Assembly (NCBI GenBank): GCA_951799425.1
Contig: OX637393.1
Coordinates: 19,425,744 to 19,489,743 of the forward strand
Direction of reading: 5' to 3'
Source of the DNA: Ilex aquifolium
Taxonomy: Eukaryota > Streptophyta > Magnoliopsida > Aquifoliales > Aquifoliaceae
Length of the DNA stretch: 64,000 bases
The position numbers were made by a program, and so were the translations under genes. This document shows positions 5,731 to 57,241 of the stretch, piece by piece; position 1 is the first letter of the stretch, and the number at the start of each line of letters is the position of its first letter. Under the pieces are notes generated by a model that saw only the letters and a program-made list of their open reading frames with translations, was not told the origin of the DNA and searched no databases.

Positions 5731-5767
5731 CACCCCCCAACTTGCGATTTGCTAGTCCCTAGCAAAT
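5731..5767 (-). other. A1 3' polypurine tract with adjacent hairpin
   Basis: On the - strand AAGTTGGGGGGTG (5731-5743) abuts the 3' LTR, the normal PPT position. Immediately upstream (5747-5767) is a perfect inverted repeat: TTGCTAG and CTAGCAA arms, extended to 9 bp, around a GGA loop. The same hairpin-plus-PPT arrangement occurs in A2, N1 and D. Confidence 0.8.
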
Positions 5768-7446: not shown

Positions 7447-7740
7447 GGTAGTTGCGTAGGGTGATTTGGAGAGGGGATGGAAAAGTGGTGAACTTTGGGG
7501 GGGAAATAAACCTTACGGTTTTGCAAGAAATTATTGGGATTTCGGCTCAAAAGTTCCAAGATTCACCCTTAATCAAGGGAAAATAGGAGGCAAAGATGAT
7601 TGGAGAGGAATTTCGAAACTCAGGAAGGAGGAGGAGGAGAGGAGAGAGTTTGGGGGAGTCGGATTTGAGAAAGGCAATGAAAGGGTTTCCGAAAAAATTA
7701 GATTTAAAACCCTTGTTTTTTTTTGGGTTCCAGACTCGAT

Positions 7741-7952
7741 CTTCCGGAAGGTCGATGTGAACCTTCCGGAAGGTTTTACTCACTGCCTAATTTAAAACAG
7801 TCAGTAGGTAAGATCTTCCGGAAGGTCTATGTGAACCTTCCGGAAGGTTTCACTCACTGGACAATTAAGCACTTCCAGTAGGTAAAATCTTCCGGAAGGT
7901 CGATGTCGACCTTCCGGAAGGTTTTACTTACTGGGCAAAACCTTCCGGAAGA
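7741..7952 (-). promoter_or_regulatory. Internal CCTTCCGGAAGG array upstream of A1 ORF3
   Basis: Seven units start at 7740, 7762, 7814, 7836, 7888, 7910 and 7941, at distances 22, 52, 22, 52, 22 and 31 bp. The palindrome and the pair linker (GGTCGATGTGAACC type) are those of the element's own LTR array, but the order of distances differs. ORF3 starts about 300 bp downstream. No clean TATA box is visible here; a TTTTAAAT stretch lies just downstream of the array. Confidence 0.75.
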
Positions 7953-27350: not shown

Positions 27351-27378
27351 AAAATCTAACCCAACCCGACCCACTGGG

Positions 27379-29489
27379 TGATTAGCACATAACAATGACA
27401 TGTATGGTGTGCTAATGTGCTTTTGTTTCACCTTTTTTGTCAATAAATGGGAGTGTTTTGGTTTTGTTTGTGGCTTGATGGAATTTTGGGTGAATGCATG
27501 TAAAATGATGTAAATGACATGATTTAAACCCCCATGGTGTTTTATGAGGCTAATGGAGTGTATGGGGTAGCTTTAAGGATGATCTGGAGGGGAAAGAAAT
27601 CCATTTTTTGCTCACAGTCTGAAAACCTTCCGGAAGGTGTATGTCGTCCTTCCGGAAGGTTTTGCTAAAAACCCTGGAAGCCTTGTTCACAGCTAATACC
27701 TTCCGGAAGGTTTTGTCCACTGGAATGAACCTTCCGGAAGATTTTAGCTACTGGAGTAAAACCTTCCGGAAGGACTTGTCTACTGGAATGGACCTTCCGG
27801 AAGGTTTTGCCTTGGGTTTCTTTTTGACTGCCAAAATCTTCCGGAAGGTTTTGTTTTCTGGAATGAACCTTCCGGAAGATTTTAGCTACTAGAGTAAAAC
27901 CTTCCGGAAGGACTTGTCTACTGGAAAGGACCTTCCGGAAGGTTTTGCCTTGGGTTTCTTTTTGACTGCCAAAATCTTCCGGAAGGTTTTGTCTTCTGGA
28001 ATGAACCTTCCGGAAGGTTTTGGCTACTGGAATGAACCTTCCGGAAGATTTTTGCTACTGATGTCGACCTTCCGGAAGTTCTTGCATTTGATTCTTTTCA
28101 TTTAACTGTTCTTTCAGCGACCTTCCGGTAGGTGTATGTCGACCTTCCGGGAGGTTTTTGCACTTTTCTCTAGACAGCCTGTAACTCAACTTTGCGGCTT
28201 GGAGGGTCCCACATGCACTTCTCCTACATGCTTCCTGACATCTCTTACACATCCTGGAGCCTCCCTCACCCCTGCATTTATTGGGATGAGTCTTGATAAT
28301 GAATGAAGAGAGAGAAGAAGAAGGAAGCTGGGTGGGCAGACAGCTCTGCCTCACCCCCTGTCCAGCCCATGTTGCTGCACCCCTAGTGATGGAGATCAAC
28401 TCTTTAGACCTCCCTCTCTCTCCAGGCACGTTTTGGGGGGAAAGCAAGAGTCTCCTTGGGGGGGTATTGATTCATCATGTATCACATTAGATATAGTTTT
28501 AGAAAGAGGAGCTCTAGGCAGAGAAGAGGATGAATAGTGGTTTTTAGAGAGAGAAAGTGACGATTTTACCATTTCTCCTACTGTATTTGTCTTGTAATCT
28601 TGAGTAAGAATCTTAGTAGTTCATTGAATGCCATAAATGTTGTTTTCCCTTCATGTTTGGTTAGTTGAATGCTTCCATTTATGTTCCACCATTAATGCTT
28701 TGAAGGTTATTCATGTTCATAGATATAAAATAGCTTTTCATTTCATTCACTTCTAGTCTAGGATTTCTTACACTTAGTTACTTCAAAGCTCCATAGCCTT
28801 AGAATGCATTACCTTTACATTATCATGTCTAGTTCAAGTATGAGTAGCTAAGCACTTTTTGTTGGCAAGACCAAGGGGAACCCTCATTGGGGTATACCAT
28901 TTCAACTCTTTCTACACCCTCCCTTTAGAGTCCCATGGTTCGGTTTGACTGGATTGAAGGTGGATGAATTGGTGAATCTTTGATAATCCGTAGGCCTAGT
29001 CACGGTTTATGCTTAGGCATTCACCAACATCATCCTCGGCTTTCCGTGAATCAACCGTTCATTCTTGCTCAATCGGAGGAGTGATTTGAGTTGAGATAGT
29101 ATACCTATTGGAGGGATCTCTTGGAATTGCCAACACTTGTTTTCTCATTCTAATTTCACCAACACACACTTCACCAAACAATTTCCAACAACAAGAATTT
29201 TACACTTTCTTTTGCACTAAATCACTTTCACATTTGCTCACTTCCTTCCCTGTGGAATCGACCTTGGAATACTTTCCAAGTAAAACACAACTCACGAAAG
29301 TCTCCTTGCGATTGGGGAGCATTTTTGTGCATACACATTCCATATCTACATCATCCCATTTCCCTTTCCTATTGCCCTTTCTTTTCACACTATCCCAAAG
29401 GGGGAGAAATCCTTCCTTCCGCTCATACATTGCATCATTTGAAGGATAGTAGTTAAAGGGTTAGGAATAGGATTGTTTTTTATCAATCA
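27379..29489 (+). repeat. 5' LTR of A2
   Basis: 2111 bp, starting TGATTAGCAC and ending ATCAATCA, immediately before the PBS. It holds the palindrome array at 27626-28154 and a candidate TATA-like stretch GATATAG near 28490. Confidence 0.95.
27626..28154 (+). promoter_or_regulatory. CCTTCCGGAAGG palindrome array, A2 5' LTR
   Basis: About 16 units in the same order and spacing as A1 (reverse orientation), from the 22-bp pair at 27626 to the 22-bp pair ending CCTTCCGGGAGG. A few units carry single changes. It lies in U3, roughly 340 bp upstream of the TATA-like GATATAG. Confidence 0.8.
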
Positions 29490-37529: not shown

Positions 37530-37741
37530 TATTCCGGAAGGTTTTGCCCAGTAAGTAAAACCATCCGGAAGGTCGACATCGACCTTCCGGAAGATTTTAC
37601 CTACTGGAAGTGCTTAATTATCCAGTGAGTGAAACCTTCCGGAAGGTTCACATATACCTTCCGGAAGTTTTACCTACTGACTGTTTTAAATTAGGCAGTG
37701 AGTAAAACCTTCCGGAAGGTTCACATCGACCTTCCGGAAGA
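37530..37741 (+). promoter_or_regulatory. Internal CCTTCCGGAAGG array upstream of A2 ORF3
   Basis: Seven units start at 37530, 37561, 37583, 37635, 37657, 37708 and 37730, at distances 31, 22, 52, 22, 51 and 22 bp. The ORF3 start (38033) lies about 290 bp downstream. Confidence 0.75.
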
Positions 37742-38032: not shown

Positions 38033-39424
38033 ATGGCTTGATTGAATGAGGCAACCATGGACGCATGGGGGGCTCTTGAAAACATATGGTGGTGGTTCAT
38101 GATCGCTTTGGGGTTTGGTGTGTTTTTCTCGCTCATGGCCAAGACGAAGAGGACTGGCCCTGAGTCTCCACCCCCCTCTGGCTCAGCTTCTAAGAAAAGG
38201 ACCGGGGAAGGTCCTAGCTCTCAGGATAAGGCGGAGCGGAGGACAAAGGCAAGGCATGATGAACGAACGAAGAGGATTGAGGACAAAGGTGTGACGTGTG
38301 AGAGGTATGTTGATAAAATCTCCCTTGGTGTTACGGATGAGGTTGTGAAAATTATTGAGGAACGGGGTTTGGATTTTTGGTTTGTTGAGGTGAAGGGGTA
38401 CAACCTGGGAATGTGCCGAGAATTTTATCAAAAATTGTTTGTTTTTGGGGATGACGGGGATAAGTTGAAAACTAATGTGAGGGGGAAATCATTTGAGGTC
38501 ACCCCTGGTACAATTGCCACGGCAATGGGATATGCGAGACCTCCCGCATCCACCCCTGTCTACCCACACAATGTGGATGGGAATAAAACACTTGAGGAGT
38601 ATGTGAACCTCACGTATGAGGACCCGACCACGTTTAAGGGAACGACATTCGTCGGGGGCCTCAAGCACACTTATGGGGTAATGAACAAAGTACTACATTA
38701 CAACTTGATGCCCCGGGGTTCGGAGAAAAATCCAAACGTGGAGAAGTTGTCCCTACTGCATGCCTTTATGACAGGGGTGGCGTTTGATGTGGCCTACTAT
38801 ATTTGGTTGGAGATGCGGGAGTTTGCCCGGACAGAGAAGCCAAAGGCGAACCTACCCTTTCCCAACCTGGTCACTAAGTTGTGTGATTAGGCGAAGGTGA
38901 AGCACTATGGCCAGGAAAAGCTGATCCCTCCAGAGTTTGGAGCAATTGGGATGGCCAGCAGTCAGAAAAGGGCTGCCAGGGCTAAGGGTGAGAGGAGCAG
39001 GGATCCAGGACCCCAGCCACAGCCACAGCCGTCTGATGCTGGAACTTCTACTGAAGCCCCTCCTACAGCACCACCTCCTACGGCACCAGGCCCTGCACCA
39101 ACCCCCGATCATGCTATTCCACAGCGCCTCGATGCACTGGTGGGTGAAGTGCAGGGAGTTAAGGGAGAAGTTCAAGGAATCAAGAATGAGGTGCATGGGA
39201 TGAAAGAGACAGTGCAGGGGATCGCTGCCATGATGACACAGCTCTTTCAGCGCAAGTTCCCAGGGAACCCCATTCCGGGCCAGGGTAGCTCAACCTCCCC
39301 CTACCCTTGTGCCTCTACCATGGTTGAGATTGGAGACACTGATGAGGAGTCTGAGGAGGAGACTGAGGGGGAGAGTGATTTTGACCTACCTCCTGATCCT
39401 GATGATGGTGGTGGTGAGAAGTAG
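38033..39424 (+). pseudogene. A2 ORF3 (env-like), two nonsense codons
   Basis: Collinear with the intact A1 ORF3. Codon 3 is TGA (38039-38041; CGA in A1) and a TAG lies at 38888-38890 (CAG in A1). Both are C-to-T changes. If translation begins at the internal MAKTKRTGP Met (about 38135), only the second stop matters and a protein of about 250 residues covering the conserved core remains possible. The coiled-coil and acidic tail lie after the second stop. Confidence 0.9.
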
Positions 39425-39706: not shown

Positions 39707-39743
39707 ATTTGCTAGGGACTAGCAAATCGCAAGTTGGGGGGTG
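39707..39743 (+). other. A2 3' polypurine tract with adjacent hairpin
   Basis: Inverted repeat with 9-bp arms (core TTGCTAG/CTAGCAA) around GGA at 39707-39727, then PPT AAGTTGGGGGGTG (39731-39743), then LTR TGATTAGC at 39744. Confidence 0.8.
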
Positions 39744-41853
39744 TGATTAGCACATAACAATGACATGTATGGTGTGCTAATGTGCTTTTGGTTCACCTTT
39801 TTTGTCAATAAATGGGAGTGTTTTGGTTTTGTTTGTGGCTTGATGGAATTTTGCGTGAATGCATGTAAAATGATGTAAATGACATGATTTAAACCCCCAT
39901 GGTGTTTTATGAGGCTAATGGAGTGTATGGGGTAGCTTTAAGGATGATCTGGAGGGGAAAGAAATCCATTTTTTGCTCACAGTCTAAAAACCTTCCGGAA
40001 GGTGTTTGTCGTCCTTCCGGAAGGTTTTGCTAAAAACCCTGGATGCCTTGTTCACAGCTAATACCTTCCGGAAGGTTTTGTCCACTGGAATGAACCTTCC
40101 GGAAGATTTTAGCTACTGGAGTAAAACCTTCCGGAAGGACTTGTCTACTAGAATGGACCTTCCGGAAGGTTTTGCCTTGGGTTTCTTTTTGACTGCCAAA
40201 ATCTTCCGGAAGGTTTTGTTTTCTGGAATGAACCTTCCGGAAGATTTTAGCTACTGGAGTAAAACCTTCCGGAAGGACTTGTCTATTGGAAAGGACCTTC
40301 CGGAAGGTTTTGCCTTGGGTTTCTTTTTGACTGCCAAAATCTTCCGGAAGGTTTTGTCTTCTCGAATGAACCTTCCGGAAGGTTTTGGCTACTGGAATGA
40401 ACCTTCCGGAAGATTTTTGCTACTGATGTCGACCTTCCGGAAGTTCTTGCATTTGATTCTTTTCATTTAACTGTTCTTTCAGCGACCTTCCGGTAGGTGT
40501 ATGTCGACCTTCCGGGAGGTTTTTGCACTTTTCTCCAGACAGCCTGTAACTCAACTTTGCGGCTTGGAGGGTCCCACATGCACTTCTCCTACATGCTTCC
40601 TGACATCTCTTACACATCCTGGAGCCTCCCTCACCCCTGCATTTATTGGGATGAGTCTTGATAATGAATGAAGAGAGAGAAGAAGAAGGAAGCTGGGTGG
40701 GCAGACAGCTCTGCCTCACCCCCTGTCCAGCCCATGTTGCTGCACCCCTAGTGATGGAGATCAACTCTTTAGACCTCCCTCTCTCTCCAGGCACGTTTTG
40801 GGGGGAAAGCAAGAGTCTCCTTGGGGGGGTATTGATTCATCATGTATCACATTAGATATAGTTTTAGAAAGAGGAGCTCTAGGCAGAGAAGAGGATGAAT
40901 AGTGGTTTTTAGAGAGAGAAAGTGACGATTTTACCATTTCTCCTACTGCATTTGTCTTGTAATCTTGAGTAAGAATCTTAGTAGTTCATTGAATGCCATA
41001 AATGTTGTTTTCCCTTCATGTTTGGTTAGTTGAATGCTTCCATTTATGTTCCACCATTAATGCTTTGAAGGTTATTCATGTTCATAGATATAAAATAGCT
41101 TTTCATTTCATTCACTTCTAGTCTAGGATTTCTTACACTTAGTTACTTCAAAGCTCCATAGCCTTAGAATGCATTACCTTTACATTATCATGTCTAGTTC
41201 AAGTATGAGTAGCTAAGCACTTTTTGTTGGCAAGACCAAGGGGAACCCTCATTGGGTATACCATTTCAACTCTTTCTACACCCTCCCTTTAGAGTCCCAT
41301 GGTTCGGTTTGACCGGATTGAAGGTGGATGAATTGGTGAATCTTTGATAATTCGTAGGCCTAGTCACGGTTTATGCTTAGGCATTCACCAACATCATCCT
41401 CGGCTTTCCGTGAATCAACCGTTCATTCTTGCTCAATCGGAGGAGTGATTTGAGTTGAGATAGTATACCTATTGGAGGGATCTCTTGGAATTGCCAACAC
41501 TTGTTTTCTCATTCTAATTTCACCAACACACACTTCACCAAACAATTTCCAACAACAAGAATTTTACACTTTCTTTTGCACTAAATCACTTTCACATTTG
41601 CTCACTTCCTTCCCTGTGGAATCGACCTTGGAATACTTTCCAAGTAAAACACAACTCACGAAAGTCTCCTTGCGATTGGGGAGCATTTTTGTGCATACAC
41701 ATTCCATATCTACATCATCCCATTTCCCTTTCCTATTGCCCTTTCTTTTCACACTATCCCAAAGGGGGAGAAATCATTCTTTCCGCTCATACATTGCATC
41801 ATTTGAAGGATAGTAGTTAAAGGATTAGGAATAGGATTGTTTTTTATCAATCA
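39744..41853 (+). repeat. 3' LTR of A2
   Basis: 2110 bp, nearly identical to 27379-29489; palindrome array at 39991-40519 with the same spacing. Followed by target duplication CTGGG (41854-41858). Confidence 0.95.
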
Positions 41854-41858: not shown

Positions 41859-43158
41859 GCGCCTTTATAAGGCACCCAATCTTTTTCTTCTTTTTTCAAG
41901 CCAGCCGGCGCTGTTGGCCCCCCCCCCATTTCTTCTTCTTCGTCTTCTTCTTTCCTTCTTCTTCTTCTTCTCTTCTTCTTTTTCTTTTCTTCTTCATTTT
42001 TTCTGTTATCTGATAAACAACCCATGACCACACATTCTACAAACACAATCTTTTGCTTCATGTTTTGCATTTTAATCTTATATTTGCTCACGGGTGTTCT
42101 TCTCTTGTTCGCACTCACACACAAGAATTTTCAGCCTACCCAAAACCCAGATCTGCGCACAGATGAGTAATTCATGTATTTTTATTTGTAGGTTTCAGCA
42201 GATGAACATATCTCTACCATTCAACCTCATCTCCAAAGATCCGTGAACTGGTAAATTCGAAACATTGGGGACAATGTTCAGTTTAGGTTGGGGGTGAGAA
42301 CTACAGTTCATATTTGCCTGTAAATTATTTTTTAAATTTTTGCTGTTGTTGTTGTTGTTCTGATCATTTTATGTACCTTGTCTTGTATAAATTGATGATT
42401 ATGTTTGTGAATCAGCTTCAATCGTCTTTGTGACTGGCAGACGTTAAAGAACCAGATAATGAGTCTTAAAGCTTAGAAAGTATGGATGTTAAACTTTTTT
42501 GGTTTAGTTTAGGAGTTTTGCGCACTTTTCCATTTGATGTGCATACTGTAATCATGAGAAAAACAAGACTGGTAAGGAAGGCCGAAATCCAAGAAAAATA
42601 AGCGAAACCCCTCTGTAGCAGAAGAAGCTTTGCCAAACGCCGTCATGCCAAAAGACTTGGTGCTTGTAAACAGTGTGACAGAGTCTTTCACGAGAAAAGA
42701 TGCAACCAGTGTTCTGAACCAATCTCTGGTCGCGCACTCGATTGATTAGACTGGATAGTGAATGGGCTGAGTAAGGATTACCCTGATACGCCATGCTATT
42801 CCGGTACTTTGTTTAACTGGTTTGTAAGAGAGGAAATTGGGAGAGTCACTGGTTGTCCGTACTACACAGATACAGAAGGAGACTCGGATTAGATAATTTT
42901 ATGTAGGAAATTTGTACTTTTGTTGGGGATGAAAGCCAAATGTCCGAATTTTTTGTAAAAAGTGTAAAAATATTTTTGTATAAACTCTTTTGACTGAAAT
43001 GAAAATATGGGCCGAGTAAGGAATGTCCCAGAATACCAACCTGAAGCGTGGGTAGGGGCTTATCCTGAGACGCCATAGGTTTTTGATTTAAAATTGTGTG
43101 TTTAGCTCTTTCTGATTTTGTATAGTGTAGTGCAATTTTTTTTTATTTTTGACTTAAT
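41859..43158 (+). other. B1 non-coding region after pol
   Basis: No gene. It starts with GGCGCC and continues with a CTT-rich pyrimidine run (about 41933-41998), the internal PPT/hairpin (42261-42298), and two diverged copies of a segment starting GAGTAAGGA (near 42770 and 43015). It does not match the long A-family block in the same position; B1 carries that block after ORF3 instead. Confidence 0.6.
42261..42298 (+). other. Internal polypurine tract with hairpin, B1
   Basis: Stem-loop AACATTG-GGGA-CAATGTT (42261-42278), then AGGTTGGGGGTGAG (42285-42298). Relative to the A-family TGCATTG/CAATGCA stem, two base pairs differ and both are compensated. Confidence 0.6.
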
Positions 43159-43390
43159 GTTCGAACGTCAGCTGCTTGCAGTACTCAACCTCTGATGAAG
43201 CCTCTGATGGAAGTAAAAAGTACTGGGAGCTCAGCTCGTTCGAACGCCAATAGACCGTTCGAACGAGATTAACGTTCGAACGCCAATAGACCGTTCGAAC
43301 GAAGATAACTTACAGTACTTTGGCCTCTGACAGAAATCAAAAGTACTGGGAGCTCAACACGTTCGAACGTCACGACTCAGGCTATAAAAA
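43159..43390 (+). promoter_or_regulatory. Internal ORF3 promoter of B1: GTTCGAAC array plus TATA box
   Basis: GTTCGAAC occurs at 43159, 43238, 43257, 43274, 43293 and 43361. The last copy ends 13 bp before CTATAAAAA (43382-43390), a good TATA box. ORF3 starts at 43600, about 210 bp further. The palindrome is the one found in B1's LTR promoter, not that of any A-type element. Confidence 0.7.
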
Positions 43391-43599
43391 CCTGGTTCGT
43401 CTTCTTCATTTCAAAACCACCCAAAAACCCCCAAAAACCGAAAAAACCCTTAGTGACTCTTCACTACCCAGACCCCAAAACACATACCATTCTCCATTTT
43501 TATCAAAAATCAACCATCCCAAGACTATTCCCATATCAAAAAGCTCCATTTTCACAAAGAAATCCAAGATTTCAAAGCCCTCAAACTCAAAAATAAAAA

Positions 43600-44449
43600 A
43601 TGCCAAGAGTCAAGCTTCCTGCCAGGCGCAACCCAAACACCCAAGAGCCCAATTTCGTGGAGGAAGTGGTGGAAGTGAGAGAAGGAATGCCACCACTTAC
43701 GCGAAGATACGACAAAACCCGGTTCCCCATAGCTTTAAAAGTTGACTACGATAACTTCTATCAAAAACATGTTGTGGTTTGTGAGAGGGATGTTGTTTTA
43801 ATTGATTTTGTTGAATTGGGTATAATGGCGGAGATGGAAAGGAGGGGTTGGGTCTTGTATTTGCGAAACGGCGGAGATGCCGTAGTTGACTTGGTGAGGG
43901 AGTTTTACTCCAACGCCGAAATAGTCAATGGATCATTAAGGAGTTATGTGAGGGGAATCCACATCGATGTGGATGAGGATTACATAAGAGAAATTAGGCA
44001 AGAAGTGCCTCGGGTCCCAAGTCCCGCTTATCCCCCGAGAAAGAACGTAGCAATGAATGTCGTGGGGAGGGAGCTAACGTGGAATGCCTAACTTTTCTTG
44101 GACTGGAAAGAGATTTTTTAGACAAGGGGAACTCACCGACAAATATAAAATGTTGAACTTGATTGCGGTTGCCAACTTTGCTCCGCTAGGAAGAAATAAT
44201 GAAATCCTCCCCGACATGGCCCGGTTGTTGTATGCAATTGGGAAAGGGCAAAGCATCGACCTCCCCTCCCTAATTTTGACAGAGATGAAAAAAGGGTGTG
44301 ATGTGAAGCGAAATTCGCTTCCCTTCAGCACCCTAGTGACGAAATTATGTAAAGACCATGGGGTTAGGGTGAAGCCAGAAATGGAGATTCAAAAGCCAAT
44401 GGGGCCACTGAACAAGGCTTCCTTCCAGAGAAGCCAATGTCATAGTGGC
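43600..44449 (+). pseudogene. B1 ORF3 (env-like), 5' part, frameshifted
   Basis: ATG 43600 starts an open frame of 163 codons (MPRVKLPARRNPN...). The conserved ORF3 core is recognisable (DFVELGIMAEMERRGW, VREFYSNAEIVNGS). Near 44080 the frame shifts and the homologous reading continues in another frame (KYKMLNLIAVANFAPLGRNN, RLLYAIGKG, VTKLCKDHGV). Solo LTR F cuts it at 44450; the C-terminal part is at 46374. Unlike A1 there is no hydrophobic lead before the basic N-terminus. Confidence 0.85.
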
Positions 44450-46005: not shown

Positions 46006-46097
46006 TATTTATAGGCGTGGGAAGGCAAGTGGGAGAAGAGATGAGGCTGAGTCTGACAAGGGTGACCGTCCGGACGGCAGTCCCACCGTCCGGACGG
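46006..46097 (-). promoter_or_regulatory. F LTR promoter: TATA box with two CCGTCCGGACGG palindromes
   Basis: The - strand reads CCTATAAATAGGG (TATA 46006-46013). Two perfect copies of CCGTCCGGACGG (46066-46077 and 46086-46097) lie 53 bp or more upstream in transcription sense, 20 bp apart start to start. This gives the clearest promoter context for the palindromes in a fully diverged family. Confidence 0.75.
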
Positions 46098-46373
46098 TGG
46101 TGCTTTGCTGGAAACGGCCACTTGCATGCATGCTGAGTCTTCACGTTGGTTAATTACACTTTGGCCTTCATTCTTTACATTTCCTTGACATTGCTCCCTT
46201 GGTCTTGCGTTATTTCGGCATTTGTCCTGCAACTTTCAGATAAAATGTTATACCTAATATCATTCCCGCACAAACCCTAATTCACTCTAAGTACTAATTT
46301 TTAGTGCATTTATTATACTAATTTAAATTTTTTGATTTTTTAATTTATACATAATTTAGGTTTAATCAGTGGC

Positions 46374-46613: not shown

Positions 46614-48438
46614 GAGAGAGGGATCCCTATCCTTGTTCATGGTTTTTGTGTGTTTATTGCTTCTTTTTATGAGTTTCTTCTTTGATAGTTGTTAAAGATA
46701 TTGTAAGTTTTTGTGTGATTGTGGATGAATTGGATTATTGATGTTGATGTTAACTGACAATATGTTGTGAAATGAATAGTTCAATTTATCACTTTTATTT
46801 GTTTTAAATGCATATGTAGATTTAGCTTAACATTAATATATGATGGAACAAATGTGTATGATAAGAATGTTTGTTAAAGTAACTACGCACATGATCGGTT
46901 TGACACCTCAGCCTATCAACCGAAACTTAAAACCACATTTCTTGGAAAATTGGTATTCTTTCTATGCTTAAATTGTCAAATATGCATCGATATTTGTTAT
47001 TTTCAAGGAACAGGATGATTGGACTCGAAAATGGAATCGGTATATAACCGACAGCCCCTGGAAAACCCGACATAATTAGTGGAGATAACAAAGAATACCA
47101 TGGTGAGTTTCGAGCCTTAAGATGCTTTCGAGAGACAATCGATGTTTACTCAAGTAAAGTCTTTCACTCTCAATTTTTGAATAATCTCATTAATCTTGCT
47201 TTGATTGATGTAATTAAAAGTGATCTATTGACATATCCCACAGGGAACCTTCGCATACGACACATTCATGTGCACATACTTGAGAAATGATCTTAGGCCA
47301 TCTTTGATTTGATATTGAGCCTTAGCCATTTCTTTTACAAAATTATTTCCCTAGTTAGCCATGCTTGAGCCCACAATGTATGACTTCTTCTTCGATAAAC
47401 CCGTATGATTACCAAGCCACAAGAAAACATACTTGACACACCATTGCTATCTAATTTTCTTGCACCCTCTTATAAATCAATATGACACATAAATGTAAGG
47501 AAAAAGGAAAGAGCTATGAAGGCTACCATTCAAGAAGAATCGATGGGAACTATTGAAACAAAAAAGAAGCAAAAAGGCAAGAAATTGCCAAGAAAGTGAA
47601 AAATGAGAAAAATGAAAGAAAGAAATATCATCTCTGGGCAAAATATCGAAAAGCTAGAAAGAGATGTGCTACACTACATAAACAGAGGATAACTTTTGAA
47701 TACTTTTGACGTCATTTCGTTAGCCACTGACCTCTGGCCATATTACAACCTATGAAAAGCCCTAATTGATCTCAAGTCTGTTACATGCATGTGTTGTCAA
47801 TCAAAATTGGGATATGGTAAATAGTATTTCTTTAAATTGCGTCAATATTCTTTCATGAGATTATGTCAAACATGATTAGTTGCTTCCTTAAAATTTCACT
47901 CCCTTCCTAATTGTGCATGTGATTTTTCGATTGGCCACCTTCTGATCACATGACTCATGAGAAACAAGTCACTATAATCGGAGCGAACTTTTGCTGAGAG
48001 TATTCTACGAGAGGTTTGTGAAATCGAAGCTATCCATGGAAGATGGTAAAAGGGAGGGTTTGTTATATAATAATTCTTGTTGCTTGAATGATCATTCCTA
48101 CTACACAGGAAATTCCAAATACCAATGTAACATATGCTAATTTTTGCATATAATAGATACCTATGAAAGAGGGACATGCGGGATATAAGTCGAAATTGAG
48201 AGTTGGGTGCCTCAATGACCATGATGTTAATTTACTTTAATCAGCAATCTCACATACACATCTGTTCGACTGAAGTTTGAGGGTAGCATCACTGGAAACC
48301 CGCACGAGACAACACTCGTCCACTAGGGTAAACCTAGTGGTTCAACAGCTTGTTGTATAAGCTAAATGCAACCGGATGACCTAAGAAAATGGCATTAGGA
48401 GTAGATTTTTTTTGTATTACTAGAGACTAGCAATATTT
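46614..48438 (+). other. B1 3' non-coding region
   Basis: No credible gene. Collinear with E 1-1396. It contains the block with GATCTTAGGCCAT that lies between pol and ORF3 in A1/A2, so the block's position relative to ORF3 differs between lineages. It also holds the antisense 108-codon frame (47896-48222) matched by E. Confidence 0.6.
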
Positions 48439-48450: not shown

Positions 48451-48634
48451 GTGATTAGCACTTAAAATTAGCATATTACTATGTCGTTTTAAGACTAATT
48501 GTACTTTGATGGAGTTTAAGTGATGTCATTTCAGGCCCTAAACTGAACAATGACTCAAGAACAAGTACCACACTTGAATGCAACACCTGCACATTAGAGC
48601 ACAAAATTGGAGAAGCTTGGAGCACAACCAGAAC

Positions 48635-49066
48635 GTTCGAACGCCAACTCACGTTTGAACGGCCACATTGAACTGTAGCATACCCAACTGCTAAGAGAAG
48701 GCATGTTGCAGCTAGGAAAGAAGACTCTGAAGCTCTGAGGCACTTGAGTGTCACGTTCGAACGCCAACTCACGTTCGAACGTGCACTTGAGTTGATTGAA
48801 GACCAGACTACTGCATAGAGTGTGGAACTGAACTTCACAGAAAACCAATAGATCACTCGAGTGAGAGGATTAGAGCACATCTGGCGTTCGAACGCCCATA
48901 GTGCAAAGACAAAAGAAACGTTCGAACGGTCGACAACATTCGAACACCAACTCACGTTCGAACGTTCTCCACAGACTGGCAGCAGAGTATTTGGTTTTTC
49001 ACTTGGACTTGGGCGGCATACACTATTCCTTCACCCCCTCTTGTCTCCTCCTATTGCCTATAAATA
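48635..49066 (+). promoter_or_regulatory. B1 3' LTR GTTCGAAC array plus TATA box
   Basis: About nine GTTCGAAC-type sites from 48635 to 48963, many perfect, some in 18-bp pairs with linker GCCAACTCAC, then TATA CTATAAATA at 49058-49066. More sites are perfect here than in the 5' LTR, where several have become GTTCGAAT. Confidence 0.75.
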
Positions 49067-49467
49067 CTCCCATTCTTGGAGAGCTCAAGGGGAGCCAAGT
49101 AGAGAGGTTGATGGAGAGGCTTAGACTCCCACTCACATTGTAGATTTAGCTTACATTTCCTTGTATGAATTCTTTATTTTAGAGATTAGTTTGGCTTTAG
49201 TCCAACATCTCTTTGCTTGTTATAAAAGTAGTTTTATGCTTATGCTTTCACTTACATGCATAAAAGGGAGTTAGTTCATCTTTTGGTTGAGGAAGCAACC
49301 CTCCATTCCTTGGTTAAGGAAGCCACCCTCCAAATGTGACTAGTTTCTTCTACTTTTATTGTTTATGTACTTCACTTCCATTGCTTGAGCTTCTTTCTTT
49401 CTTAGAAGAGTGAAACTCTTCCACTTTTCTAGAGGTTTACCAAAGCCGTGAAGGGTGGAACGTGATT

Positions 49468-51294
49468 TGATTGGTGGGAAATGCGGTGTTGTTTCCTAAC
49501 CTCTAAACATCACCCTCACCCTCAATGTGTGTATGTGGCTTATAGTGATGGGGGAGTGTCACACTCCCTCCGGGTAATGCAAAAGATTAGGCAACAACGA
49601 ACAAATGGTGGGAAATGGATGAACAAAATATATGTGAAATGGAGAATGTGTGTGCACAAAAATGCTCCCCAATCGAAAGGAGTCTTTTGTGGTCGTGTGT
49701 TTTACTTGGAAAATATTCCAAGGTCGTCTCCTCAGGGAAGGAAAGGGAGTTTTGTGAAAGTGATTTTGCAAAAGTGAAAAGAAAGTGTAAAATCTTGTAT
49801 TTGTGTTTTGGTGAGTTTTGTTCAAAATGAAAATGCAAGAAAGCAAGTGTTGGCTAATCCAAAGGGTTCATTCCAATGGGAATACCAAATCAACTCAAAG
49901 CCTTCCTCCGATTGAGCATGAATGAACGATTAATTCGGGGGAAGCTAGGGACGAGATTGGTGAGTAATCTAAGCATAAACCGTGACTAGGCCTACGGAAT
50001 ATCAAAGGCTCACCAACTCATCCACTCTCAACCCCGTCAAACCGAACCATTTGACTCTAAAGGGAGGAATGAAGAAGATTTGAACATGGTATTCCCAAGA
50101 GGAATTTTCCCTTGGATTAACCAACTTAAATCTAGCTACTCATGCTTGAAAGGAAAGACATTAATGTAAATGGAAGACATGTAGAAGAAATGAAGCATGG
50201 AACTTAACTAAATGCAAGAAATCTTAAACTAAGAAGAAAGAAATACAATACCCAATTTAAAACATGAAAATGAAGAACTTGAAAGCATAAATGGTGAAAT
50301 GAAGAACATGTAACTAACTTGCAATATACTTGAAATAAAGGAGATTACAATGTAAGAAATGAAGATTAAAAGAGGAATGTAGCTTACAGCAATGACATGG
50401 ATGAAGAAAATGCAAAAATGAAATTACTATTCATCATCTTCAACCTTGGAGCTTTCTACATCTACTCCTAAGCTTAGGTAGCCAACCTTTTACAAAATGA
50501 ATGGAATGCTGAATATAATGGAGTGTAGAGACATGTCAAAACGTCCAAGAGGCTCCCCCCTAGCTGTGTGTACGAGCTCCCATCAAGAGAGGGCTGAATG
50601 GATGGCTTTGACAGGCTAGGAGATCATAGCCTGGGCAGCCCACTTCCCCCCATTCCTCCTTTAATGCATTGGCCTTTAAAGTCTTCCACATGAGTGTAGG
50701 AGGCCTGTAAATGTGTAAGGAAATGTTGGGATAGGCGTGGGAGAAGTGTAGGTGGGACCCCCAAGCCTCAAAGTTGAGTTACAGGCTGTTTTCGCGACCA
50801 GAAGGTCCGGAGTACCGGTACTAGGTACCGGTACTGTTTTTCTGCACTGGACCACCTTCGGTAGAATCGGAATAACTCTTGATCTAACCGTTGGATTGGG
50901 CTGAAAGTTTGACACCAAACAGAAGACACCCATATCTACAACTTTCATGTTTTTAACTTTTCCGAATTCTGCATAGATCATGGTCAAAATGGAGGAATTC
51001 CGAGGCAGTGCTTCCAATTGTTGCTGCAGCTGGTGCCTTTGTTCCCAAGCACCAATGCCTTCTTGATTTCTTCACTTTTAAGCCTCCAATTCTTCATGTA
51101 TTGTGTCCATGCCTTCACCACACATCCAAAATAGTTGCAATGTCCTAAAATACATGATTTAAGCAATAAAAGGTTGCAACATCAAAATATCAACATTATA
51201 GACAATTTTGGCTAACACTAAGTATTAAAATGCAAAAGTTGAGTTATAATGCATGTAATGAGCCCTTCAAATATGCAATATTATGCGCTCATCA
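49468..51294 (-). repeat. 3' LTR of N1
   Basis: 1827 bp, nearly identical to 54487-56342 except that it lacks a 29-bp block of TACCGGTA palindromes present at 55850-55880. Palindromes are at 50811-50836. Confidence 0.92.
50811..50836 (-). promoter_or_regulatory. TACCGGTA palindromes, N1 3' LTR
   Basis: AGTACCGGTACT followed by GGTACCGGTACT, two overlapping-frame palindromes 13 bp apart. The 5' LTR copy has four. Confidence 0.75.
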
Positions 51295-51330
51295 CACCCC
51301 CCAACTTAAGCTTTGCTAGTCCCTAGCAAA
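51295..51330 (-). other. N1 3' polypurine tract with hairpin
   Basis: On the - strand AAGTTGGGGGGTG (51295-51307) abuts the 3' LTR; the inverted repeat TTTGCTAG/CTAGCAAA with GGA loop is at 51312-51330. Identical design to A1/A2 although the rest of the element differs. Confidence 0.8.
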
Positions 51331-53012
51331 CAAAATGTAAAAGCAAGCAAACAAAAATAAACCTATACTAATTCCGCAATTGCATTTAGCACATGCAACA
51401 AGCCTTTAAACCCCTAGGTGATCCCTAGTGGACGAGTTTTGTCTCGTGAAGGTTTCCAGTGAAGGTACCTACAAACTTCTTGCTAATATCCAATATTTAA
51501 AGTATATTCCCCTATCTTAACTAGTGATGGGATTTCAATAAAACAACTATGTTCAAAACATCCTAACTAAAAACACATGCAACACATTATAGCTTTAAAT
51601 GCTATTCTAGAGTATCCACATACACATTTCCTTTCAAAACTCGTGTGTGTGTGAAATGAACATGTAATTTAAACATTTACACAATGGAGTTCACATTCAC
51701 GTGGCTATCCAAATTAAGCTTTGATGCAAAAACTCACCAAGGGTTTCTCTAAAAAATGAATAACTCAATGATTATCCTAGCATGCACTCCATGTGTATAT
51801 GTGAGATAGAATCTTATTCACAAACCAAAATGCTCACATATAATCCAAAAATGAAGCACATGTATACAAATGAAACAACCTTGGCATAATCTCATGAAAG
51901 GAATGCTAGGGCATTAGATAGTAAAATTAACTTCTCTTTTTCTTTAAAAGTATGCATCCCCCATGCTTCTCTAGATCTTTTAGGACTTTCATGGGTTGTA
52001 ATGAGGCCTTGGGGTGATGTTGTGGTAAGGGAAACGAAGGATATAGGATAACAAATAGGGTTGTTCCGGGTGAATGACCTTAATCTTAGAAAAACACTTC
52101 CCTTTTATGGGATTTTGATTTTCACACCATCACCACACCCTTTGTTTCTTTTCTTTCTTTTCCTTTACATTTTTCCCTTTTCTTTTTCTCATTCTTTTTC
52201 TCCTTTTTCACTCCCTTTCTCTCCTTTTCTTGGATTTTCATTCTTTTTCCATTGAACTCTTTTGAGTTTCAACATCCTTCATCCCTTTTGTTTGAGTTTC
52301 CACACCATCATTCCTTTTCTTTTATCATCACCCAACTTAGCACTAGGAACAACCAAGGTAAGGTAGATATTTATCATTTTCATTGGCTTGGTTACATGTG
52401 TGGCATAGAAACGAATTCAATTAAGGCTCAATCATGGCACTAGGGATAAAATTTCACAAGAAAAAGGCAAAGGCTCAAAGCATTTCAAAGATGGCCTAAG
52501 ATCATCTCTAGATAAGCATAGGAGGAACATTTTGCGTTTCAAGACAAAGTCAATCAACTACCCAAAAGCACCTAACCAAAACAAACATAATGAGATTATT
52601 GAACAAATTTAGAATTTGAAAAATTGTTCCTTGAGTAAATGTAAGTTCCCTCCAAACAAGGATTGGCATTAAAGCTCACATGGGTTCTTACTCATCTCCA
52701 CTATTCATGTCAAGCACTCAAATGTGAACTCAATCCGTAAATTGTCCAAATTACACATTCAAGGTGCACAATGGTTGAGTTTGAAAGAAAACACATATGT
52801 GATACTCAAGCATAAGATAAACTTCTATAATGTGCTCATGTATTCAAAGTTCAAAATGAAGATCAAGCAATTCACAAATCCCATAACAATTAGGATAAAG
52901 GAATATAGTTCAATATTGACTATTTTTCACAAAAATTGTCCAAAATTTTTCAAAATTTTCACATTTCCAACTTATTCTATACACAAAGTGGTGGAACATG
53001 TGAATGGTGCAC
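51331..53012 (-). other. N1 non-coding internal region
   Basis: No credible gene. It is homologous to the A-family region after pol (for example GATCTTAGGCCATC near 52490 on the - strand). Frames such as 52061-52255 come from low-complexity T-rich sequence. Confidence 0.6.
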
Positions 53013-53051
53013 CTCACCCCCCAACTTAAACTATGCATTGTCCTCAATGCA
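53013..53051 (-). other. Internal polypurine tract with hairpin, N1
   Basis: On the - strand stem-loop TGCATTG-AGGA-CAATGCA (53034-53051) then AGTTGGGGGGTGAG (53013-53026). A second PPT-like stretch (TAAGTTGGGGGGTGTA) is at about 53162-53177. Confidence 0.6.
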
Positions 53052-53262
53052 CAAGGGATCATGCAATGAAAACAATGAAGGTAAAATGGGAAATGAGATA
53101 CCCTTTTTTTTTTTTATAATATATATAAACATAAAAGAGAAAAAGAAACACACAAAGCTCATTTACACCCCCCAACTTAGACTAGAACATGGGGGAGAAA
53201 TGCTGGTGATGCCCTCAAAGCAGGTGGAGCAGCATTGCAGAGATTGGGTCTGTCAGGCAAAC

Positions 53263-53363
53263 AGTACCGGTACTGGGTACCGGTACTGCGATTCCAGTAG
53301 ACTTTTAGTACCGGTACTGGGTACCGGTACTGCGATTCCAGTAGACTTTTAGTACCGGTACTG
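53263..53363 (-). promoter_or_regulatory. Internal TACCGGTA palindrome array of N1 (44-bp tandem)
   Basis: A 44-bp unit with two palindromes (AGTACCGGTACT, GGTACCGGTACT) starts at 53263 and 53307, with a third partial unit at 53351. On the - strand a TATA-rich stretch (TTTATATATATTATAA, about 53115-53131) lies roughly 130 bp downstream. The palindrome type matches N1's own LTR. No ORF3 remains for it to drive. Confidence 0.65.
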
Positions 53364-53523
53364 TTCTGCTTTGTCTGCTTTCTGATTCTTAAACAAGCTT
53401 TATGTTAAAAACTAAACTACAATGATACTCACCATTATACTACAATGACATGAAAAATAAAAATATAACAATAAAAGAGATCTAACTACTATGTACATGG
53501 AAACAAAACAACAAGGGCTCATG

Positions 53524-54366
53524 TCAATCCGGCTTCAATTCGGATATGACCTTACGCCCATGGATTTTTTTGATTTTAAAATTTTTTTGTTGTATAAATG
53601 CCATTTCTATCCAATCTATCCAACCATACAAGGGATAATAATTCAAAAATCTCAACTGAACCAAGATGTATGCGAGTTTATGCAATGCAACAAATGGAAT
53701 ATACAATTTCTCATTAAGAACACTTGACTCCATTTCAATGCCCTCCCCAAGTTGAGAAATGTGAATCTCAACACCACTCAAAGATGGCAAAATGACCTTG
53801 GGCTCATTAGCCTCATATGAGATAATAACTTCATTAAATGTTTCACAATCTAGAGTGGTGGGAGATTCAACATTAATATGCATTTCATTGGGGGGATCAT
53901 TCTCAATATATTGACTATGCTCAAGGTGTTGTTCTTCATGCATAACAATTATAGCATTAGTCAATGTATCAAGTTGTTGAGTTATTTGGGCATTGAATTC
54001 CATTTGGCTTTGCATAAACTCGCCTAATTGGGCATTGAATTCCAATTGGCATTGCATAAACTCGCAAAAAGTATTTTCCAATGCTTGTTCGGTTAAGTCC
54101 TCATACGTTGGGTAATGGCAAAATTCATTTGGTGGTGTGAGATTGGATGGAAAATTATACGGTTCATTCTCCCAACCATAACTCGGATAACTCGGTGAAA
54201 CATAATGGTTGGGGTAAAAGTTTTCGCATGCAAAGTCTTGAACCGGATAATTTATTTGGCACATACAAGAGATGAGCCCAAGGTCATCACAAATCTCACA
54301 CACATTTTCATAATAAGGGGCATTTGATACATTTTCATAATAATTATAAGACATTATATAAAACAA
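53524..54366 (-). CDS. N1 ORF: gag-remnant protein of unknown function
   Basis: 280 codons. The N-terminal part has ENVCEICDDLGLISCMCQ, which looks like a decayed CCHC knuckle lacking the histidine, followed by a Tyr/Pro/Asn-rich segment (PSYGWENEPYNF) and the repeat FMQCQLEFNAQ / FMQSQMEFNAQITQQLDTL. That repeat resembles the gag linker of A2 ([19 protein letters not shown]) and B1. The capsid-like N-terminus is absent. The C-terminal ~100 residues (from VILPSLSG to the stop, with LRFLNYYPLYGWIDW) match nothing I recognise. It sits between the leader (start about 120 bp from the PBS) and the internal palindrome array. Uninterrupted in a recent copy, so it may be expressed. Confidence 0.7.
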   Translation of the reverse strand: MFYIMSYNYYENVSNAPYYENVCEICDDLGLISCMCQINYPVQDFACENFYPNHYVSPSYPSYGWENEPYNFPSNLTPPNEFCHYPTYEDLTEQALENTFCEFMQCQLEFNAQLGEFMQSQMEFNAQITQQLDTLTNAIIVMHEEQHLEHSQYIENDPPNEMHINVESPTTLDCETFNEVIISYEANEPKVILPSLSGVEIHISQLGEGIEMESSVLNEKLYIPFVALHKLAYILVQLRFLNYYPLYGWIDWIEMAFIQQKNFKIKKIHGRKVISELKPD

Positions 54367-54396
54367 AATATTTACAAGTTAGACGACATACCTTGG

Positions 54397-54424
54397 CCCG
54401 TGATGAAAATCACAAGACTTACCT
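54397..54424 (-). promoter_or_regulatory. Leader splice donor and hairpin, N1
   Basis: On the - strand AAG|GTAAGT (GT at 54421-54422), then CTTGTGAT-TTTC-ATCACGGG (54397-54416). Two positions that differ from A1/A2 still pair as U-G in RNA. Confidence 0.6.
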
Positions 54425-54465
54425 TATGCCGTCCCAAAATCACCCTCGAACTCGACGCTTAACCT

Positions 54466-54483
54466 TCCCCGGCAACGGCGCCA
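54466..54483 (-). other. Primer binding site of N1 (tRNA-Asp)
   Basis: Same 18-nt tRNA-Asp match as A1/A2, 3 bases inside the 5' LTR boundary at 54487. Confidence 0.9.
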
Positions 54484-54486
54484 AAA

Positions 54487-56342
54487 TGATTGGTGGGAAA
54501 TGCGGTGTTGTTTCCTAACCTCTAAACATCACCCTCACCCTCAATGTGTGTATGTGGCTTATAGTGATGGGGGAGTGTCACTCTCCCTCCGGGTAATGCA
54601 AAAGATTAGGCAACAACGAACAAATGGTGGGAAATGGATGAACAAAATATATGTGAAATGGAGAATGTGTGTGCACAAAAATGCTCCCCAATCGAAAGGA
54701 GTCTTTTGTGGTCGTGTGTTTTACTTGGAAAATATTCCAAGGTCGTCTCCTCAGGGAAGGAAAGGGAGTTTTGTGAAAGTGATTTTGCAAAAGTGAAAAG
54801 AAAGTGTAAAATCTTGTATTTGTGTTTTGATGAGTTTTGTTCAAAATGAAAATGCAAGAAAGCAAGTGTTGGCTAATCCAAAGGGTTCATTCCAATGGGA
54901 ATACCAAATCAACTCAAAGCCTTCCTCCGATTGAGCATGAATGAACGATTGATTCAGGGGAAGCTAGGGACGAGATTGGTGAGTAATCTAAGCATAAACC
55001 GTGACTAGGCCTACAGAATATCAAAGGCTCACCAACTCATCCACTCTCAACCCCGTCAAACCGAACCATTTGACTCTAAAGGGAGGAATGAAGAAGATTT
55101 GAACATGGTATTCCCAAGAGGAATTTTCCCTTGGATTAACCAACTTAAATCTAGCTACTCATGCTTGAAAGGAAAGACATTAATGTAAATGGAAGACATG
55201 TAGAAGAAATGAAGCATGGAACTTAACTAAATGCAAGAAATCTTAAACTAAGAAGAAAGAAATACAATACCCAATTTAAAACATGAAAATGAAGAACTTG
55301 AAAGCATAAATGGTGAAATGAAGAACATGTAACTAACTTGCAATATACTTGAAATAAAGGAGATTACAATGTAAGAAATGAAGATTACAAGAGGAATGTA
55401 GCTTACAGCAATGACATGGATGAAGAAAATGCAAAAACAAAATTACTATTCATCATCTTCAACCTTGGAGCTTTCTACATCTACTCCTAAGCTTAGGTAG
55501 CCAACCCTTTACAAAATGAATGGAATGCTGAATATAATGGAGTGTAGAGACATGTCAAAACGTCCAAGAGGCTCCCCCCTAGCTGTGTGTACGAGCTCCC
55601 ATCAAGAGAGGGCTGAATGGATGGCTTTGACAGGCTAGGAGATCATAGCCTGGACAGCCCACTTCCCCCCATTCCTCCTTTAATGCATTGGCCTTTAAAG
55701 TCTTCCACTTGAGTGTAGGAGGCCTGTAAATGTGTAAGGAAATGTTGGGATAGGCGTGGGAGAAGTGTAGGTGGGACCCCCAAGCCTCAAAGTTGAGTTA
55801 CAGGCTGTTTTCGCGACCAGAAGGTCCGGAGTACCGGTACTAGGTACCGGTACCATTTGGTACCGGTACCAAGTACCGGTACTGTTTTTCTGCACTGGAC
55901 CACCTTCGGTAGAATCGACATAACTCTTGATCTAACCGTTGGATTGGGTTGAAATTTTGACACAAAACAGAAGACACCCATATCTACAACTTTCATGTTT
56001 TTAACTTTTCCTAATGCTGCATAGATCATGGTCAAAATGGAGGAATTCCGAGGCAGTGCTTCCAATTGTTGCTGCAGCTGGTGCCTTTGTTCCCAAGCAC
56101 CAATGCCTTCTTGATTTCTTCACTTTTAAGCCTCCAATTCTTCATGTATTGTGTCCATGCCTTCACCACACATCCAAAATAGTTGCAATGTCCTAAAATA
56201 CATGATTTAAGCAATAAAAGGTTGCAACATCAAAATATCAACATTATAGACAATTTTGGCTAACACTAAGTATTAAAATGCAAAAGTTGAGTTATAATGC
56301 ATGTAATGAGCCCTTCAAATATGCAATATTATGCGCTCATCA
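54487..56342 (-). repeat. 5' LTR of N1
   Basis: 1856 bp, nearly identical to the 3' LTR, with an extra 29 bp in the palindrome array (55830-55883). A TATA-like CCATTATATTC on the - strand near 55530 lies about 300 bp downstream of the palindromes. Confidence 0.92.
55830..55883 (-). promoter_or_regulatory. TACCGGTA palindromes, N1 5' LTR
   Basis: Four TACCGGTA cores in 54 bp, including AGTACCGGTACT and GGTACCGGTACC, two more than in the 3' LTR. Confidence 0.75.
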
Positions 56343-57241
56343 TGATTCACTCATTCTTTGTTAAAGATTGGCTCCTTGTTTATTATTATTTCATTTTGTA
56401 AGTCCTCTACTTGGAGGGATTAACATCACTCACTTTTCTAGCTTTACCAAAGCCATGAAGATTGAGTAGTTTCTCATTCACTCTTTAGTAAGAGGAGAAG
56501 GGCATATATAAGTTATCCGAGAATTATATTTGTGCTCTGTTCTGATGCTTAACGTTTATTTCTCCTTGCTTATTGGATCATTGATTTCATCTAGCAAAGC
56601 TAAGGTACTTTGTATAACCGTGGGATCTTTCTATGACACAGATGACTCTTGCATAGAAAGACTCATCCGTTCAAGGAAAGTACCCCGGCTAGATCTTCAT
56701 GACTACCCTTCAATCCTCCCTATTATTGTGCTTCACTTAAAGAATGGAATATTAATGTCATGGTTGGATGTCTTGTAGAAACACTTGCTTTTTTGTAGAC
56801 GGGTTAAGTCTCGACACAGACAATTCTTGTAAACTTCTGGAAAGACATCGAAATCATGTTCTTAATTCTCACAGTCCATCTTTATCTTCCAATTAAATTG
56901 TTGTTAACACGGGAGTTAATTGAGTTATCAAGCACAAGTATAATAAACTGGATAATTAACTACATGTCCAGATCCTTGAACTAAATAGTGACTCTTTTTC
57001 ATTCGAGCTTATCTCATATTTTGTTAAGAAAATTATCTTGGAAAGAATCTTATATTCTGTCCAGGAAATCTCACACCTCATAACAAATCTCAAGGGTTAC
57101 AATCAATAGGTCTCCACCACTGCTTATCTCAAAAATACCAACAAAAGTTCCCTGTGGATTCGACTCTGGACTCAAACCGGATTATTACTACAGCTTGACC
57201 GCCTGCACTTGGGTGTACACATTTCGGATCAAGTCAGTAAA

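Follow-up and report, generated by a model that had tools for sequence, protein, structure and literature searches.

The window, by which we mean the whole stretch of 64,000 nucleotides analyzed here (C3:19425744-19489743, from an assembly of 800 Mb in 103 contigs), contains Ty3/gypsy elements nested in one another, namely A1, A2, B1, and D together with parts of others (table 1); B1 is interrupted in its internal region by A2 and in its 3' LTR by D. In A1 and A2, Pfam domains delineate a single frame running through gag, protease, RT, RNase H, and integrase, followed by an ORF in sense orientation (ORF3), and the position of integrase after RNase H is that of Ty3/gypsy and not that of Ty1/copia elements. 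The primer site TGGCGCCGTTGCCGGGG found 3' of the 5' LTR is identical in A1, A2, and D, differs by one change in B1, and is presumably of the tRNA-Asp type, which we take to be the Athila type. As expected of Athila, the ORF between pol and the 3' LTR carries PF20167 (Transposase_32), a domain tied to the aORF of Athila elements in sunflower (PMC11728184; papers given by PMC number were available to us as partial texts, to which our statements about them refer). On the basis of domain order, PF20167 ORF, and primer site, we infer that the elements are Athila-like Ty3/gypsy elements. PPT-like TTGGGGG motifs also occur inside internal regions (at 35698, 9808, 53168, 53017, and 42286), well before the 3' LTR, and several PPT copies have been reported for Sireviruses too (PMC2829016).

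Table 1. Elements, palindrome arrays, and ORF3 features in the window.
Feature	Position	Strand	Details
C, 3' LTR of another B-type element	1613-1922	+	five GTTCGAAC
A1 element	LTRs 3619-5731 and 15757-17867	-
A1 3' LTR array	4954-5482	-	14 TTCCGGAA
A1 ORF3 from conserved Met	6055-7344	-	429 aa; basic N-terminus, PF20167, heptads, acidic tail
A1 internal array, upstream of ORF3	7740-7952	-	seven TTCCGGAA, spacing 22/31/52
A1 5' LTR array	17092-17620	-	14 TTCCGGAA
B1 element	5' LTR from ~19820; 3' LTR 48452-49467 + 56343-57236	+
B1 5' LTR array	20024-20316	+	three exact GTTCGAAC; TATA at 20411
A2 element	LTRs 27378-29489 and 39743-41853	+
A2 5' LTR array	27626-28154	+	14 exact TTCCGGAA + degenerate sites
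A2 internal array	37530-37741	+	six exact TTCCGGAA
A2 ORF3 from conserved Met to in-frame stop	38135-38887	+	open again 38891-39421
A2 3' LTR array	39991-40519	+	14 exact TTCCGGAA + degenerate sites
B1 internal array	43159-43368	+	six GTTCGAAC, close pairs 17-19 bp apart
B1 internal TATA box	43382-43390	+	CTATAAAAA, 13 bp past last palindrome
B1 ORF3 leader	43400-43599	+	ATG-free (0 ATG in 200 nt), G-poor
B1 ORF3, first open piece	43600-44088	+	start of PF20167; E 7.3e-8, below curated cut-off
B1 ORF3, second open piece, other frame	44096-44446	+	rest of PF20167; E 7.1e-15
X46, LTR-like piece	46066-46100	-	two CCGTCCGGACGG 20 bp apart; TATA 46014-46006 (-)
B1 3' LTR array	48635-48963	+	six GTTCGAAC; TATA at 49058
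D element	LTRs 49468-51294 and 54487-56342	-
D 3' LTR array	50811-50833	-	two TACCGGTA, spacing 13
D internal array	53263-53363	-	five TACCGGTA, spacing 13/31
D 5' LTR array	55830-55883	-	four TACCGGTA, spacing 13/16/13

Palindrome Arrays in the LTRs and Upstream of ORF3

A sequence-only reading of the locus had claimed that, in B1, six palindromes precede a TATA box and the ORF3 ATG, and that the LTRs carry the same palindrome upstream of their own TATA box; every one of these features is present. The internal copies of GTTCGAAC start at 43159, 43238, 43257, 43274, 43293, and 43361 and the ORF3 ATG lies at 43600, while in both LTRs 94 bases separate the GTTCGAAC array from CTATAAATA (at 20411 and at 49058). 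In the window as a whole, GTTCGAAC is observed 20 times (C LTR, 5; B1 5' and 3' LTRs, 3 and 6; B1 internal array, 6) against 0.45 expected, a count reached in none of 100 shuffles. Looking at GC-containing palindromic 8-mers irrespective of their sequence, the interval 42600-43600 holds 6 copies of a single one, for a maximum of 2 in 1000 shuffles, and all the 400-bp segments (50-bp steps) with at least three copies of one such 8-mer overlap LTR U3 arrays or internal arrays. The leaders of A1, A2, and B1 (289, 288, and 200 nt) are all devoid of ATG, a property that 155 of the 2552 windows of 200 nt within the analyzed stretch display as background.

The arrays upstream of ORF3 in A1 and A2 had likewise been said to be of their own LTR type, and TTCCGGAA is indeed found in both places, with 7 and 6 exact octamers in the respective internal arrays, some of the 12-mers having 1-2 mismatches. 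A TATA box follows the internal array in B1 but in neither A1 nor A2, and the A-type LTR stretches inspected are without one as well. The spacing of the sites matches too: 22, 31, and 51-53 bp recur in LTR and internal arrays of A (44 bp being found in the LTR only), the pairs of B measure 17-19 bp in the internal array and 18 bp in the LTR, and 13 bp is found in both places in D. The intervening sequence differs, the best alignment of LTR with internal array covering 37 bp in B, 26-66 bp in D, and 155-261 columns at 65-70% in A. Helical phasing was considered and rejected as a general rule: multiples of ~10.5 bp suit A, whereas the 17-19 bp of B and the 13 bp of D depart from them. A TACTGG/CCAGTA motif also recurs among palindromes of differing type (5078-5354, 27749-28025, 43221, 43344, and 53271-53338), with 30 of its 37 occurrences in the window falling in A, E, B-internal, or D-internal arrays and none in stretches of B LTRs, C, D LTRs, E2, G, and X46; it is possible that this motif is an accessory site common to several array types.

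In A, ORF3 and its array come after a conserved spacer, and in B they come before it (A2 36024-36349 matches B1 47069-47419 at 65%, when the reversed A2 control gives no match), the D array being at the B position. Because this module keeps together at differing positions in A and B, array and ORF3 seem to travel together. D itself, which the sequence-only reading does not name, keeps an internal array though it has no ORF3 match, and so does another D copy (L039), which is all that a search for an ORF3-bearing partner of D retrieved. D (49468-56342) thus represents a family devoid of pol and ORF3, with 519 genome pattern matches to its internal array motif, several per copy; these are partly arranged head-to-tail, ~5.0-5.3 kb apart (e.g., a series of five near 34.40 Mb on C4), as though LTRs were common to neighboring tandem copies.

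Conservation of the B-Type Layout across the Genome

Searching the whole genome for the B-type pattern GTTCGAACGCCAATAGACCGTTCGAACG with up to 3 mismatches returned 860 and 876 matches on the two strands and 0 for the reversed control. We considered 22 distinct loci, of which 20 stretches were picked by the internal pattern and two were added as further loci (L001-L006 are duplicates of later loci). In 19 of the 20 scored loci, CTATAAA starts 13 bp past the last exact palindrome, the exception (L017) having its box 64 bp past the last exact site with two decayed sites in between; in L012 and L026, kept outside the scoring, the box is TTATAAA, at an equivalent position on visual inspection. In 19 of 20 loci, likewise, the ATG that comes first after the box, 211-232 nt further on, is that of ORF3, and the remaining one (L025) has neither an ORF3 start after the box nor an ORF3 match. 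Downstream, a GTTCGAAC cluster, taken as the LTR by its place and TATA box, is found in 16 of the 20 loci; in the other four (L015, L016, L017, and L023), other or inverted elements come first, which we read as nested insertions. The succession of TATA box, leader, and ORF3 ATG is an established sequence feature of B-type copies.

Matching Dyads in Other ORF3 Families

To go beyond types A, B, and D, we relied on the PF20167 profile, which yielded 150 scored matches, all above cut-off, of 6661 first-look candidates and none in 14 control genomes. Ten further ORF3 copies were sampled by PF20167 match and ORF3 group, blind to the palindrome, their LTRs being assigned by a PPT-like start, or by position and TATA box, rather than by a read pair. 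Given that L034, L035, and L038 belong to the clade of L029 and L030, and L037 to the L033 group, the ten copies represent four ORF3 groups (the L029 clade, L031, the L033 group, and the L032 group), three of which can be assessed. Seven copies are assessable, as L032 and L036 lack LTR signs and the stretch available for L037 contains no LTR.

The sequence-only reading held that copies with discordant LTR and internal palindromes would speak against it. None of the seven is without any shared dyad, but the agreement is of unequal quality: L029, L031, L030, and L033 have a palindrome in common between the two places (by eye for the last two), whereas L034, L035, and L038 only share a dyad of half-sites. 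L031, from a group with a 377-aa ORF3, has seven CGTCCGGACG inside and four in its presumed LTR, with 23-bp pairs in both places and TATAAA 13 bp past the last internal palindrome. L029 carries two copies of GCGCCTAGGCGC in each place, at a distance of 62 bp in the internal region and 61 bp in the LTR, and L030 shows CAGCGCTG then CAGCGCCCC in both LTR and internal region. In L033, the internal region holds two imperfect CCGTCCGGACGG-like sites and the LTR two CGTCCGGACG, in either case at a distance of 20 bp; the core motif and spacing of the L033 LTR are also those of X46. In L034, L035, and L038, GCGCCTAGGCGC is the main palindrome of the internal region but does not occur in the LTR, and what the two places share is GCGC-N4-GCGC with a different spacer.

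A more formal test retrieved, in the 724-1000 bp before ORF3 (after gag for D), the most frequent dyad, made up of two 4-bp half-sites separated by a gap of 0-4, and counted it in every LTR, with LTR bounds taken from paired repeats (A1, A2, B1, and D) or a PPT-like start (L029, L030, L033, L034, L035, and L038); the LTR stretch of L031 was placed around a cluster already known and is thus non-blind, and the A1, A2, B1, and D arrays were also known beforehand. Nine of 11 elements, covering five dyad types, have their commonest internal dyad in their own LTR as well (14, 14, 6, 2, 3, 4, 2, 2, and 3 occurrences; 0 of 300 shuffles for each). Matches to another type are limited to two, both in the L033 LTR (the L031 dyad, 2 occurrences, and the D dyad, 1), and the GCGC dyad also occurs in LTRs of its own clade, including L030 (1). 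L030 and L033 have no repeated internal dyad, and the tied top dyad of each is absent from its own LTR; because neither has a repeated dyad, the rule is silent on them. By label permutation, agreement across five dyad types has a probability of 1 in 120 (hand calculation). The earlier proposal that the palindrome is the same within an element and differs between families applies to nine elements and five dyad types, with the reservation that three copies match by half-sites only. The matched-palindrome observation is confirmed as real and general in this genome.

Two groups call for a separate comment. The 377-aa ORF3 group of L031 occurs at 13 places with identical E-value (1.8e-29) and frame length, for which reason this family looks recently active. 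The group of L032 (L032:1655-2806) and L036 (- strand) has PF20167 open frames of ~378-387 aa, in whose surroundings, as far as read, neither LTR nor PPT signs occur; in L032, GATCGATC repeats are found upstream. The group may represent a mobile element of another kind or a family of host genes.

The ORF3 Protein

In the window, ORF3 is broken in A2, B1, and G, with the frame of B1 interrupted near 44088. PF20167 is kept in all ORF3 groups, and the sequences document purifying selection, with a median dN/dS of 0.124 over 75 pairs of 13 open B-type copies. These were the 13 of 21 copies that start with MP and remain open through 110 codons, a choice that favors low dN/dS; three of the 78 pairs were left out for dS <=0.03 or saturation, and the median dS of 1.25 is itself near saturation.

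Among coding features, a basic-cluster pattern is present in six of eight ORF3s (the exceptions, L033 and L037, have arginine-rich N-termini), acidic C-terminal ends are found in A1, L029, and L030, and an ad hoc C-terminal heptad score is equalled by 0-5 of 200 shuffles in all nine ORF3s tested. No recognized DNA-binding domain was found in ORF3, PF20167 having no function assigned to it. Profile searches of the PDB were without significant match (best E 0.31 and 0.058), the weak ones being mostly on the C-terminal helix, and AlphaFold models reached a mean pLDDT of 37 and 50, from 7 and 10 shallow rows, which is too low for use. Protein searches returned three relatives only (P0001-P0003), and IMG/VR and GTDB contigs, each queried with two peptide patterns, gave no match.

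Between A and B1, ORF3 is 28% identical in the comparable piece, as opposed to 57% for pol. Between groups, identity ranges from 16 to 39% over the segment matching the second B1 piece, except for B1 and L031, which reach 51%; the palindromes of these two, the closest ORF3s of different groups, are GTTCGAAC and GTCCGGAC, which differ by one base in each half-site. The octamer GTCCGGAC is common to L031 and L033, yet their ORF3s are only 38% identical (L033 and B1: 39%), so that the distance between ORF3s is not a simple function of the distance between palindromes. With five types only, we do not claim a trend between the two.

A Proposed Two-Promoter Model

The sequence-only reading proposed two promoters under one element-specific regulator. 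Its first half is well supported at the sequence level, as B-type loci and four other dyad types display two promoter-like sites with the same palindrome. Since arrays and spacing match within elements and the motif switches between families, one family-specific factor may act on two promoters. In our preferred model, the LTR promoter would drive genomic RNA and gag-pol and the internal promoter would drive ORF3, each family's two promoters being marked by arrays of one family-specific palindrome or dyad at a family-specific spacing. ORF3 would be a nuclear dimer, made of a basic N-terminus, a PF20167 core, and a C-terminal coiled coil; it would bind the palindrome of its own family at each of the two promoters, and either activate these or shield them from silencing, thereby closing a positive loop. 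We hold this model, taken as a whole, to be moderately probable.

That ORF3 is the regulator is our best guess: it is the best candidate on account of its coiled-coil-like end, purifying selection, position behind the putative second promoter, and faster divergence than pol, and a palindrome would call for a dimer, which the coiled coil would supply. As each palindrome type has at least one CpG, methylation could gate binding. Several facts count against the model, namely the lack of a recognized DNA-binding domain in ORF3, the discrepancy between ORF3 and palindrome distances, the D array without ORF3, the dyad-only match of L034, L035, and L038, the A-type arrays without TATA box, the absence of a repeated dyad in L030 and L033, the block exchanged in L039, and the hydrophobic stretch in the long frame of A1. 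A bolder extension, plausible to us but falling a little short of likely, would make the ORF3 of Athila-like elements a fast-evolving dimeric DNA-binding switch, with a palindrome-protein lock on both promoters of each family, new families arising by joint change of the two, and D living on a matching ORF3 in trans.

Alternatives to an ORF3 Regulator

The most serious alternative, rather unlikely in our view, is that a host transcription factor acts at both matched promoters, different factors having been adopted by different families, e.g., heat-shock factors for TTCCGGAA. Host-factor sites are well known in plant LTRs, TTCCGGAA obeys TTCnnGAA, which we take to be the heat-shock element rule, and element G carries TTCTAGAA. 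However, GTTCGAAC, TACCGGTA, GTCCGGAC, and GCGC-N4-GCGC, four of the five dyad types, depart from this rule, which rules out heat-shock elements as a general explanation and would require a separate host factor for each family, common to LTR and ORF3 promoter at matched spacing. Also in favor of host factors, database matches of Sirevirus motifs are mainly stress-factor sites (PMC2829016).

It is improbable that the arrays match by descent alone, through concerted evolution without common function, template switching or conversion having copied pieces of LTR array inside. Such exchange does happen, as the L039 internal array (L039:400-542) contains a ~55-bp block 96% like the D LTR array, and in A the best aligned LTR-versus-internal pieces (one per pair) extend over 155-261 columns at 65-70%. 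In B, by contrast, the best piece is limited to the 37 bp that surround the palindromes; even so, the sites and their spacing are preserved, at a fixed distance to TATA box and ORF3 in 19 of 20 loci. Exchange alone does not account for that placement, and may be how the match is kept rather than why.

Still less probable is that ORF3 is an env-like protein translated from a spliced mRNA, the arrays doing something else. Athila ORF3 has been called env in the literature (PMC2410132), splicing has been reported for Bagy-2 (PMC7264820), and in B1 a CAG at 43469 is preceded by a lead-in of 73% pyrimidine. By the criterion used for plant env-like proteins, however, a transmembrane helix is absent from all eight ORF3s read from the conserved Met, with Kyte-Doolittle maxima of 1.03-1.56 (19-residue windows), an extra hydrophobic stretch (1.85) being confined to the longer A1 frame that starts at the first ATG; in addition, the PF20167-bearing aORF of sunflower Athila is predicted to be nuclear (PMC11728184). 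Also at odds with a spliced env is the fact that ORF3 is preceded, in B-type copies, by a TATA box and an ATG-free leader. Finally, we give the least credence to the palindromes acting in RNA or as silencing targets (hairpins, dimerization, siRNA sources) rather than as protein sites, for although the arrays contain perfect inverted repeats and palindrome-rich plant LTRs have been linked to small RNAs, both the LTR and the internal array of B-type copies and L031 precede a TATA box, and the U3 array is absent from the 5' end of the RNA.

Significance and Comparison with Known Systems

The extra ORF of Athila was named envelope-like in the late 1990s, judging from titles in the reference list of PMC11728184. 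A family-specific palindrome before both putative promoters provides Athila ORF3 with a concrete and testable role, with a predicted binding site for five dyad types. If true, the model would also bear on the drop in LTR methylation of some sunflower Athila clades, the cause of which was left open by its authors in the part of the text available (PMC12844716).

Among extra ORFs of plant retroelements, the aORF(+) of sunflower Athila 14 resembles ORF3 in being in sense orientation, after pol, 487 aa long, with PF20167 at 133-312 and a nuclear localization signal; the accessible text describes no palindrome array ("palindrom" occurs 0 times; PMC11728184). Gene23 of Grande and TRP28 of Retand are likewise extra ORFs after pol with a proposed regulatory role, gene23 being nuclear with its own promoter and TRP28 predicted to bind DNA, but they are antisense to gag-pol and carry PF04195, and no LTR-matched palindrome is described for them in the portions available of PMC11963269 and PMC7264820.

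The sequence-only reading had offered VANDAL transposons and their VANC proteins as an analogy. The comparison is fair as regards motif switching, given that VANDALs have family-specific short motifs in repeat arrays that change along with a self-encoded protein with highly variable regions, but Sireviruses are nearer in layout; moreover, VANDALs are DNA transposons, their motif YAGTATTAY is non-palindromic, and binding and demethylation were demonstrated there (PMC5735166). The nearest worked-out mechanism is, by analogy, that of foamy virus Tas, a single DNA-binding protein that activates the LTR and an internal promoter for downstream regulatory genes, also in a retroelement (PMC8670036). 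Binding and activation are demonstrated for Tas and would be expected here, and we do not claim that Tas and PF20167 are related.

In layout, the nearest system described is the repeated motif (RM) of Sireviruses, in which palindrome arrays upstream of the LTR TATA box and of ENV were reported in 2010; the linker copies are present in nine elements with ENV and in none of four without ENV, and an internal promoter was suggested (PMC2829016). Because Sireviruses possess arrays in both places, the layout is known in Ty1/copia. The likeness lies in element-specific arrays before the LTR TATA box and an extra gene, as seen in B-type copies and L031 (the A1 and A2 arrays being without TATA box). 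The differences are that Sireviruses are Ty1/copia whereas the elements here are Ty3/gypsy, that all but one Sirevirus RM have a CGG-CCG core (PMC2829016), when CGG followed by CCG is absent, by inspection, from GTTCGAAC, TACCGGTA, TTCCGGAA, GTCCGGAC, and GCGC-N4-GCGC, and that the internal array is kept here without the extra gene (D, L039). Unlike in Sireviruses, we also find that the TATA box of B-type copies keeps a constant distance to ORF3, that spacing is matched, and that ORF3 carries PF20167, and a self-encoded regulator is not described in the available part of PMC2829016. For Athila-like Ty3/gypsy elements, we found no description of this layout in the open-licence literature, in the parts available. 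The same layout in Ty1/copia Sireviruses and in Ty3/gypsy would point to convergence on a self-controlled two-promoter plan, and what is new relative to the Sirevirus layout is an Athila-like Ty3/gypsy variant equipped with a candidate regulator.
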